In this document: piece after piece, positions 1 through 3,076 of the stretch
Layout: every line of letters starts with the position of its first letter
Position numbering within the stretch: position 1 is the first letter of the stretch
From: Lewinella sp. IMCC34183
Lineage (GTDB): Bacteria > Bacteroidota > Bacteroidia > Chitinophagales > Saprospiraceae
Assembly (NCBI RefSeq): GCF_003390915.1
Contig: NZ_QMEM01000005.1
Coordinates: forward strand, 310,001 to 374,000
Direction: 5' to 3'
DNA: 64,000 nt
Made by a program: the position numbers and the translations under genes
The notes under the pieces: generated by a model
Database searches by the model: none
What the model saw: the letters and a program-made list of their open reading frames with translations, nothing else
What the model was told of the DNA's origin: nothing

Positions 1-761
1 GTACCGGCACCGATAATGGGGCTGTCGCCGAGGCGGTTGTATCGCTTGTTGGTCATACCGCCGGTACTGGTGCCCGCGGCGAGGTTGCCGTCCTTGTCCA
101 GGGCCACGCAGCCCACGGTGCCGTGCTTCTTGTCTACGTCGATCTTTTCCTGCTCGACCTTTTCGCCCTCCAGCGCGCGCTGCAGGCTCTGGTAGCGCTC
201 TTCGGTGTAGAAGTAGGAGGGATCGACCACCTCCAATCCCTGGCCGGCGGCGAATTCCTCGGCGCCCTTGCCGGTGAGGAGTACGTGCTCGGACTTTTCC
301 ATCACGGCCCGGGCCGCGCTGATGGGGTGCTTGAGGTTGGTCACCCCGCCTACGGCCCCGGCGTTCTGGTCAGCCCCGTTCATGAAGCTGGCGTCGAGCT
401 CGTTGATGCCGGCGTTGGTAAATACGGCCCCCTTACCGGAGTTGAAGTAAGGACTGTCCTCCATCACCCAGATCGTAGCTTCGACGGCGTCGGCCGCGCT
501 GCCCCCTTGTTGCAGCACCTGCTCGCCCGCGTCCATCGCCGCGTTCATGGCGGCGGTAATGGCGGCGGCCCGCTCGTCGGTCATATTTTCCTTCAGGATG
601 GTACCCGCGCCGCCGTGAATGACCAGGGCGTACTCCGGACGCTCCGTGGAGGAGGCGCCGGACGCGGGTGCGGTGGCTTCCGGGGAAGCCGCGGAGGCCT
701 CCTGGCAGGCATACAGGAAGAGGACGAGGCAGAGATTCAGCAGGACGGGCAGCAAGCGCAT
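1..761 (-). CDS. Isoaspartyl peptidase / L-asparaginase lipoprotein (3' end cut by window edge)
   Basis: Ntn-hydrolase that removes isoaspartyl residues or hydrolyses asparagine. About 253 codons are visible and the C-terminal part lies beyond base 1. A hydrophobic N-terminus ends in a lipobox-like LYAC with Cys19, suggesting a lipoprotein. The family motif IHGGAG follows. The Gly-Thr autocleavage site is HGTVGCVA, with the nucleophile Thr at about residue 215, then a substrate-loop motif GTSTGGMTNK. The ATG at 761 begins the signal sequence directly, which fixes the start. A -7-like TACCTTTA lies about 22 nt upstream. The family assignment is firm; choice between peptidase and asparaginase activity is inference. 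Confidence 0.93.
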   Translation of the reverse strand, partial: MRLLPVLLNLCLVLFLYACQEASAASPEATAPASGASSTERPEYALVIHGGAGTILKENMTDERAAAITAAMNAAMDAGEQVLQQGGSAADAVEATIWVMEDSPYFNSGKGAVFTNAGINELDASFMNGADQNAGAVGGVTNLKHPISAARAVMEKSEHVLLTGKGAEEFAAGQGLEVVDPSYFYTEERYQSLQRALEGEKVEQEKIDVDKKHGTVGCVALDKDGNLAAGTSTGGMTNKRYNRLGDSPIIGAG

Positions 762-819: not shown

Positions 820-1559
820 CTATGCGACGGCGGCCCGTACCTCCTCGCTGGTGCGCGGGTTGGCCGCCCCCTGGTGCAGGTAGTCCGGCAGCGCCCGCAG
901 CTTCGCCAAATTGCAAAAGGAAAATCCGGCCTTGGAAACGATCGGAAGAAGGATGAACAGAACCGAGGTCACTTCAGCCCCGAGGATGCCCGCCCCCGTA
1001 ACCCCAATGCCCAGACCAGGGGATACAGCAACCACTGGATACTCAGGTAATTTGCTGACGCCCGGTGGGCGGCGGTCAGTTTCGGCCCCTGGATCTTGGC
1101 CTGCTGGTAAAGTTCCCGCCACATCAGGCGGTAGACCGCGAGCAACGCCACGCAGCCCGCGATGTACCAGAACTACCTGGTATCGCCGGCGGACAGATCC
1201 GCCACCAGCCCCGTCAGGATCATAATCACCTGACTGCCGAGCAGGCCGGCGGTGATGGAGCCCTCCAGCTTCAGGGTATACTTTCCGGTTAGCACCAGGG
1301 AAAGCAGGAGCAATAGCGTACTGACCACCCAATCCACGTAGCGGGCGAAGTAAACGGTCTTGCCCCCCACTTCTACCGATCCCTGACCGAGGGTAATGGC
1401 TGAGTATACCAGTCCCGACCAAATGACCATGAATGCGTGGATCAGGTAGTTATACTGCGGCGCGCCCTTCGGCTTGCGCGACATGATCAGAATTGCCATC
1501 GCACTTCCAGCCATGACGGCTACGTAGGCCCAGCGAATCATAACGTCGAAATCACTCAC
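820..1559 (-). pseudogene. Anabaena-sensory-rhodopsin-like / xenorhodopsin, interrupted by an in-frame TAG and a 1-nt deletion
   Basis: Seven-helix retinal protein most like Anabaena sensory rhodopsin. Helix A carries RWAYVAV and helix B PQYNYL and IWSGLVY. Helix C carries ARYVDWVVST, with the counter-ion Asp kept, Ser at the bacteriorhodopsin D96 position and Leu replacing the usual Pro. Helix G carries LLPIVSKAGFSF, with the retinal Lys and Pro at the D212 position, a xenorhodopsin hallmark. The reading frame is broken twice. A TAG at 1175-1173 stands where ASR has a Tyr codon (R-stop-FWYIAG against RYLWYICG), and reading then continues in the same frame. About 170 nt later a C4 run (1002-1005) is one base short, so helices F-G resume in another frame and end at TAG 822-820. 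The start is uncertain: GTG 1559, ATG 1541 or ATG 1640. Either a pseudogene or two sequencing errors. Confidence 0.85.
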
Positions 1560-1754: not shown

Positions 1755-2147
1755 TTACTCCTGCACGACGGTAAAGCTAATGCAGTAGTCCGCCTGGGGG
1801 ATTTGCGCCGGATCACACGCTCCGGGAAAAACCCCGACGGTATCGATGGAGATCGTGAACCCCCGGTACGCGACATGGGTCATCAAGTCGGGGCTACCGC
1901 CGGACAAGCGATCCGCAACGAAGCGTTTACCCTCCGCGTCATCCAGTTCGGCAACCAGGTTGCCCTCCCAGACACAGTTTGCGTTGCAGGGGCAGTAGCC
2001 GTTGTCAACGCGGCTCAGCGTCAACTGGTGGCCGTCGGGCAGCGTCAGAGGCTCTCCGACGGCGATGCAATCCGAAAGCTCAGGAGCATACACGTCCCGC
2101 TGACAGCCGGCGAGCAACAAAATGGAAAGGAGGATGGCGTACCGCAC
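1755..2147 (-). CDS. Small lipoprotein with Cys-rich CPCNANCVWEG motif
   Basis: 130-residue protein with a clear lipoprotein signal: a hydrophobic stretch ending in LLAGC, Cys15 being the lipidation residue. The body is a compact beta-rich domain. Its centre, DNGYCPCNANCVWEGN, resembles the DSRCP...CVWxG signature common in small Bacteroidota periplasmic lipoproteins of unknown role. It stands alone, on the same strand as the rhodopsin remnant and mlaF, with 155-195 nt gaps on each side that hold nothing I recognise. Real gene likely; function unknown. Confidence 0.8.
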   Translation of the reverse strand: MRYAILLSILLLAGCQRDVYAPELSDCIAVGEPLTLPDGHQLTLSRVDNGYCPCNANCVWEGNLVAELDDAEGKRFVADRLSGGSPDLMTHVAYRGFTISIDTVGVFPGACDPAQIPQADYCISFTVVQE

Positions 2148-2302: not shown

Positions 2303-3076
2303 CTACTCAGCGTGCCGAGTCTTAAGCGCATCCTCCCGCAGCCGCCGCAGGAACGGACTGGCGAAGATGAAGTCCTGGAGCACCTCGCTGTCGCTTTCCA
2401 GCACTTCGTTCTTGTTGCCCTGCCAGGCGAGGTTGCCGTCCTTGAGCAGGACGATGTTGTCGCCGATGCCCATGACGGAGTTCATGTCGTGGGTATTGAT
2501 GACGGTGGTGATGTTGTTGCGGTTGGTGAGGTCGCAGATAAGCTCGTCGATGAGGATCGAGGTCTTGGGGTCGAGACCGGAGTTCGGCTCGTCGCAGAAC
2601 AGGTACTTCGGCTCCAGCACCATGGCGCGGGCGATGCCGACGCGCTTCTGCATGCCGCCGGACACCTCGGAGGGGAAGCGGTCGTTGATGCCTTCCATGT
2701 TGACCATCTCGAGGCACTCGTTGACCCGCTTTTCCTTTTCGCCCATGGTCTTGTTCGTAAACATGTCCATGGGGAAGCGGATATTTTCGCCTACCGACAT
2801 AGAATCGAAGAGGGCGTTGCCCTGGAACAGCATCCCCACCTTCATGCGCACTTCCCGAAGGGCCTCGTCGTCGAGGGCGAAGAGGTCGGTGTCGTCGTAG
2901 TATACCTTGCCCGAGGTGGGCTCGAAGAGGCCGATCAACAGCTTCAGCAGGACCGTCTTACCCGCTCCCGAACTGCCGATGATCAGGTTGGGCTTACCGG
3001 CGTAGAATTCCGTGGTGACCCCCTTGAGCACGTCGTTGTCCCCGAAGGACTTGATGATATTATCCGTACGGATCAT
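2303..3076 (-). CDS. mlaF: MlaF-like ABC transporter ATP-binding protein
   Basis: 257-residue ATPase of the MlaF/Mkl family, which powers phospholipid or lipid transport between inner and outer membrane. Walker A is GSSGAGKT (residues 34-41). The signature motif is SGGMQKRV, and Walker B leads into FCDEPNSGLDPKT. A switch His lies in NTHDMNSV. The FQGNALFDSM Q-loop is typical of Mkl proteins. It lies 11 nt downstream of the MlaE permease on the same strand, forming a two-gene operon. No MlaD/MCE gene is adjacent, so the substrate-binding partner must be elsewhere. Confidence 0.95.
   Translation of the reverse strand: MIRTDNIIKSFGDNDVLKGVTTEFYAGKPNLIIGSSGAGKTVLLKLLIGLFEPTSGKVYYDDTDLFALDDEALREVRMKVGMLFQGNALFDSMSVGENIRFPMDMFTNKTMGEKEKRVNECLEMVNMEGINDRFPSEVSGGMQKRVGIARAMVLEPKYLFCDEPNSGLDPKTSILIDELICDLTNRNNITTVINTHDMNSVMGIGDNIVLLKDGNLAWQGNKNEVLESDSEVLQDFIFASPFLRRLREDALKTRHAE

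Follow-up and report, generated by a model that had tools for sequence, protein, structure and literature searches.

A probable recent pseudogene of the ASR/xenorhodopsin family in a Lewinella genome

Introduction

The window analysed here, a stretch of 64,000 nucleotides from Lewinella sp. IMCC34183 (G000:C53:310001-374000 in whole-genome coordinates), holds on its minus strand a gene in which all seven helices of a microbial rhodopsin can be read, from a GTG start at 1559 to a stop codon at 820-822, across an in-frame TAG and a change of frame. Has this gene truly been lost, or is it intact in the organism and damaged only in its sequence, and what would the unbroken members of its lineage be expected to do? 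An earlier note, made from the letters of the DNA alone, had described it as a broken rhodopsin gene of the type of Anabaena sensory rhodopsin (ASR) and the xenorhodopsins (XeRs).

We put the probability at about three in four that an ASR/xenorhodopsin-family gene of horizontal spread has recently been inactivated here, leaving a pseudogene. A broken copy is ordinary gene loss, yet this one is well resolved, with open sister genes, empty sites in relatives and a bound on the time spent under relaxed constraint. The sister proteins, moreover, bear on an open question in XeR research, namely the identity of the first acceptor of the Schiff-base proton in the inward pumps. Asp216 has been proposed for this role in PoXeR (PMC5118547), while in NsXeR His48 or another group is proposed to act before Asp220 (PMC13093656). 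The relevance of the sisters lies in the fact that nature here combines a His at the one place with an Asn at the other.

The gene and its two lesions

The pseudogene (820..1559, minus strand, from GTG start to final stop) was delimited by translation, Pfam and phylogenetic placement. PF01036 (Bac_rhodopsin) matches upstream of the TAG at 2.4e-21 and downstream of the frameshift at 1.9e-4, the latter under the gathering score (21.4 vs 24.6 bits), and the middle part alone gives no Pfam match; together with the translation, these matches bear out the earlier reading of seven helices. A rhodopsin family search of the whole genome returns two pieces at this locus, flagged '1 TAG', and three open rhodopsins elsewhere.

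The first lesion is the in-frame TAG itself, at 1173..1175 (minus strand). The earlier note had it replacing a conserved Tyr codon (TAC to TAG); the stop codon stands, but comparison with orthologue codons gives TGG (Trp) in all four Neolewinella-type orthologues, including the one from a frame-damaged MAG. At this position ASR, BcXeR and the XeR L060 carry Tyr, and the XeR L086 carries Leu. The second lesion, recognised by frame comparison, is a net loss of one base in the F-G loop, between the codons for WALG and GAGILG (zone 989..1010, minus strand). The loss had been assigned to a G4 run; the net loss is upheld and the placement is not, as a C5 run at 993-997 fits equally with the C4 run at 1002-1005 (plus strand), and the exact run cannot be assigned.

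Both lesions lie upstream of the codon for the retinal-binding Lys (ASR K210; 931..933, minus strand), and the window copy is therefore not an intact, retinal-binding protein: its normal product should be unable to carry retinal. The downstream frame is nonetheless conserved through to the natural C-terminus. Alignment confirms the further diagnostic residues that had been read from the sequence: the counter-ion Asp (ASR D75; 1332..1334, minus strand), Ser at the D96 position and, downstream of both lesions like the Lys, Pro at the bacteriorhodopsin D212 position (ASR P206; 943..945, minus strand). It also confirms the reported Leu codon (1314..1316, minus strand) at the helix-C Pro (ASR P81), where 24 of 24 other aligned rhodopsins have Pro.

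Orthologues and family placement

When the N-terminal piece was searched against 398 genomes of the family, six matched: the genome itself, four more of the genus, and one weakly (G382; 27% over 75 residues, E 9e-4, in a 1061-residue frame), which we took as chance. The comparison with related genomes that the earlier note had proposed thus yields open orthologues in three sister genomes, Neolewinella xylanilytica (L013), N. maritima (L014) and Lewinella sp. IMCC34191 (L015). These are 72-76% identical to the window copy over 243 residues and share its active-site residues, but they differ from it in having an open frame, Trp at the TAG site and Pro in helix C, and they occupy two other genomic sites. 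The fourth orthologue, in a Saprospiraceae MAG (L016; CATQHI010000011.1), is damaged. Its adjacent gene, which we take to be of TonB type, is likewise split over several frames, so the damage there looks like sequence error. For this reason neither the codon test nor the tree includes L016, and we do not regard its break as a second natural loss. With frame breaks in adjacent genes, apparent pseudogenes on that MAG contig are unreliable in general.

The tree comprised 25 rows, with the window row read through and unknowns placed at the lesions; NsXeR, PoXeR and a canonical marine proteorhodopsin were not among the rows. Eight rows form an XeR group with support 98/97, namely the four Neolewinella-type proteins, ASR, BcXeR, L060 and L086, the last two being XeRs of another family of the phylum. 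Outside this group fall GR, ESR and the genus's own DTE, DTK, NDQ and NTQ rhodopsins. The Neolewinella subclade has support of 100/100, and the window's place within it is weakly supported (76/58). The ASR/xenorhodopsin assignment made from the sequence is borne out by this grouping, and the window copy has the Pro at the D212 position, the counter-ion Asp and the retinal Lys of the family. That same Pro, and a position outside the DTE/DTK/NDQ/NTQ/GR/ESR side of a tree that holds no canonical proteorhodopsin, speak against a proteorhodopsin.

Five rhodopsins found in records of Methylobacterium, Aureimonas, Terriglobus, 'Arthrobacter' and Acetobacteraceae (L017-L021) lie next to the XeR clade (94/93); they retain an Asp at the D212 position, carry His where NsXeR has His48, and are without the D217 acid.

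Among solved structures, the N. maritima protein scores best with ASR (200 bits), followed by the xenorhodopsin 7zng/7zmy at 165. With 6eyu, which we take to be NsXeR, it scores 82, under several chloride-pump and other rhodopsins. The A38 and S211 of 7zmy agree with the BcXeR numbering in PMC13093656, and on that ground we take this structure to be BcXeR. NCBIfam offers no family for seven proteins searched.

Distribution was gauged with the N. maritima protein in genome sets that sample larger groups, each set including the window's own genome. At an E-value cut-off of 1e-22, 4 of 396 order-level and 1 of 395 class-level genomes match; at a cut-off of 1e-15, 2 of 395 phylum-level genomes do. 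The second of these phylum genomes (G623, bearing L060) is probably Rubricoccus marinus, to judge from the helix C of L060, DWVVTTPLLLTA, and from its T-S-A rhodopsin L062, which match the residues tabulated for RmXeR and RmHR (PMC5877348). One further genome with an XeR (G791) occurs among nine genomes of the same family. The earlier view that such a gene is uncommon in Bacteroidota therefore holds as to rarity, although XeRs in the phylum were already known (Hymenobacter, Rubricoccus, Rubrivirga). XeRs have been described as patchy and horizontally spread, with one Hymenobacter member (PMC3198991). In the literature searched, outside which most subscription journals lie, no report of these Neolewinella/Lewinella rhodopsin genes was found.

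Genuine loss or sequence error

The chief alternative to a pseudogene, which we regard as unlikely though not negligible, is that the organism has an intact gene and that both lesions are errors of sequencing or assembly. The indel falls among G/C runs, and the orthologue of the MAG carries breaks that look like sequence error and extend to the neighboring gene. The quality of the window sequence as a whole was assessed by a tblastn frame check, in which open frames of the G367 and G371 stretches and of L013-L015 were compared with the window; counting only matches of at least 40% identity, the check covers 42 loci and 47,038 of the 64,000 bases. Only at the rhodopsin locus (1/42) is the homologue's own match broken between frames with stops inside, the remaining 41 loci being matched in a single frame. 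Stops at three other loci precede the start codons (773 and 785 before 761; 3837 before 3834; 7637 before 7643), and second frames at six others stem from short, overlapping reading frames in the relative that fall within genes otherwise matched by a single open frame. The flanking genes with homologues are open, as had been noted from the sequence. Assuming uniform errors, the second of two random errors would fall in the same gene with a chance of ~740/47,038, or 1.6%.

Because only one locus in 42 changes frame, random assembly error is unlikely, and it was set aside as first choice after this check. Two further observations weigh against errors: one of the lesions is a substitution, with the helix-C Pro changed besides, and the genome's three other rhodopsins are open. 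The description of the gene as broken is thus supported, for the assembled sequence, by the TAG, the frame change, the open orthologues and the 42-locus check.

In favor of the error explanation stand the selective record of the window branch, on which purifying selection is undiminished, and the preserved downstream frame. Codon likelihoods, calculated with a custom script on an assumed four-taxon topology, give an omega of 0.048 for the window branch vs 0.037 for the background, values that are indistinguishable (LRT 0.13), with omega of 1 rejected on the window branch (LRT 16.9) and a 95% upper bound between 0.10 and 0.15. An alternative topology gives 0.064 (LRT 1.09). Selection has therefore persisted into the recent past or, should the lesions be errors, to the present day. 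For real lesions, the purifying selection still recorded on the branch makes the break a recent one. The lack of excess protein change is to be expected of a very young pseudogene and equally of an intact gene with sequence errors.

A hint of decay, though not a test of it, comes from the sites that are invariant in the six other XeR rows. The window copy departs from them five times (L7I, V32A, A55T, P81L and Y165H), where the three sisters depart 0, 1 and 3 times and the three distant rows 6 to 13 times.

A functional gene maintained by stop readthrough with programmed frameshifting, or as a split protein, could draw on the coding conservation still seen in both parts, but it would have to accommodate two unrelated lesions that are absent from three intact orthologues, and we consider it extremely improbable.

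Genomic sites and the history of the gene

A recently inactivated gene, the reading we prefer, also has to be placed in the history of its locus. To the left lies an Asparaginase_2 family protein (Pfam; 1..761, minus strand), which runs out of the window, and to the right a small gene, lipoprotein-like by its N-terminus (1755..2147, minus strand), and an ABC transporter ATPase (2303..3076, minus strand; Pfam), presumably MlaF-like, which genus comparison identifies as a syntenic anchor. Eight relatives were chosen as the best 8, by ABC ATPase, of the 19 other genus genomes having one, and in all eight the asparaginase and ABC genes are near neighbors with no rhodopsin between them. Four of these relatives have a homologue of the lipoprotein gene, and in them 191-224 bases separate it from the conserved edge of the asparaginase gene, compared with about 1,120 in the window. 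A sensitive search (E up to 1) of the eight empty sites and of two sites in the window's own genome gave a single match, L069 (24% over 45 residues, E 0.42), which was rejected as chance-like.

The orthologues lie elsewhere. In N. xylanilytica and IMCC34191, the rhodopsin gene is near a gene we take to be of esterase type and adjoins one presumed to be of FAD-oxidase type; in N. maritima and the MAG it adjoins a YjbR gene (PF04237) and the putative TonB-type gene already mentioned. The gene pairs of both of these sites are present in the window's genome without a rhodopsin. Counting the window's own, the rhodopsin gene occupies three sites across five genomes. The window branch is long as well, at 1.91 for the XeR vs 0.21 for the ABC ATPase and 0.89 for the NTQ rhodopsin on the same assumed topology; MlaE was dropped as a control gene when the search pattern failed in relatives.

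Separate gains, rather than descent in place, best explain the differing loci, the empty sites and the long window branch, and the window locus has probably seen a horizontal gain followed by loss. An intact copy would have been gained, in a Neolewinella-like strain, between the asparaginase gene and the lipoprotein and ABC-transporter genes, and, if the lesions are real, it was under purifying selection for most of its history. Loss would then have come with the nonsense codon after helix D and the one-base frameshift in the F-G loop, leaving a product of about 128 residues that would lack the retinal Lys and form no pigment.

Searches for the source of the gene found no donor. Only short imperfect repeats were seen at the site when it was inspected for a mobile element. 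A search of viral sequences, of a kind that finds close relatives only, gave four pattern matches, none of them a relative, and plasmids gave six matches at 30-38% identity, five annotated as bacteriorhodopsin and one without annotation, with no close copy among them.

What the intact lineage may do

Having a single counter-ion Asp and a Pro at the D212 position, the intact sisters are most likely retinal-binding proteins and, judging by these residues, would show photochemistry of the ASR/XeR type. Where they part from known members is on the cytoplasmic side. At the positions of ASR E36, A40, S214 and D217, the three intact Neolewinella proteins have Lys, His, Ala and Asn, as do the pieces of L016, and the window copy has Asn (1449..1451), His (1437..1439), Ser and Asn (910..912; all minus strand, by alignment), while ASR, BcXeR, L060 and L086 have E, A, S and D. 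The second of these positions corresponds to BcXeR A38 and NsXeR His48, and the last to the cytoplasmic acceptor Asp (PoXeR D216, NsXeR D220, BcXeR D214). At the D96 position the Neolewinella clade has Ser, BcXeR, L060 and L086 have Ala, and PoXeR has Leu.

Our tentative proposal, which we hold as possible rather than established, is that the Neolewinella XeRs form a subclade, marked by helix-G Asp to Asn, E36 to Lys and His at the His48 position, that would serve as a natural test of His-run inward transfer without the Asp, or of a turn to non-pumping photochromism. The intact sisters may thus carry out His-relayed inward transport or act as photochromic, non-pumping receptors, and the gene seems to move as a single unit between loci and to be lost again, as if its benefit were conditional.

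That the intact lineage consists instead of ordinary inward proton pumps like PoXeR, RmXeR, BcXeR and NsXeR, the earlier suggestion for an intact gene, now appears doubtful. The proteins do share with these pumps the single counter-ion Asp and the Pro at the D212 position; by the tree they belong to one clade with ASR, BcXeR, L086 and the probable RmXeR, L060; and their His stands at the position of NsXeR His48, the candidate first acceptor there, where the mutation A38H raises pumping by BcXeR about 1.7-fold (PMC13093656). The source of PoXeR, Parvularcula oceani, even has the same NDQ and NTQ companions beside its XeR (PMC5118547). But the Neolewinella clade lacks both the helix-G acceptor Asp and its Glu partner (PoXeR D216 and E35), with Asn and Lys in the three intact orthologues and Asn at both positions in the window copy, and the acceptor is Asn in the MAG piece as well. 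In PoXeR, D216N and E35D/Q significantly reduce pumping, D216N gives no M, and D216E pumps about threefold more (PMC5118547). In NsXeR, Asp220 is held not to be the first acceptor, and D220N inhibits M formation at 230 K (PMC13093656). Given their Lys, His, Ala and Asn at the positions of E36, His48, S214 and D217, the intact sisters are unlikely to use the PoXeR route for inward proton pumping, as far as residue comparison can indicate.

Less probable still is the other function that had been put forward, that of an ASR-type sensor, here taken to signal through a soluble ASRT-like transducer. ASR is the closest solved sequence to the N. maritima orthologue, the positions of D75, S86, W176, P206 and K210 agree, and Ser occupies the D96 position as in ASR. 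Unlike ASR, however, the clade has K/N for E36, H for A40 and N for D217, quite apart from the broken state of the window copy, and the ASR transducer family (PF07100) was found in none of 21 genus genomes, the window's own included, in a search that did detect the family in its positive control, Thermotoga maritima. None of the flanking genes tested, furthermore, is common to the window site and the other two sites.

Other rhodopsins of the genome and the supply of retinal

The three open rhodopsins of the genome (an NDQ, an NTQ and a DTK type) lie intact on one contig (G000:C34; L001, L002, L004). The NDQ rhodopsin is closest to 8jh0 and next to sodium-pumping rhodopsins, and the NTQ rhodopsin is closest to the chloride-pumping 6ab9; the D-T-K rhodopsin bears only a distant likeness to solved structures (best 4hyj, 88 bits). 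Just downstream of the NDQ rhodopsin gene is a beta-carotene 15,15'-dioxygenase gene (PF15461, blh-type), the kind of carotenoid oxygenase for which a search elsewhere in the genome had been recommended. With this gene in place, retinal can probably be made, and the loss of the window copy would leave the organism with three other rhodopsins.

The same genome also holds three adjoining outer-membrane genes (G000:C54:291135-300595; L085), presumably of TonB type, whose products are 55-62% identical to one N. maritima protein.
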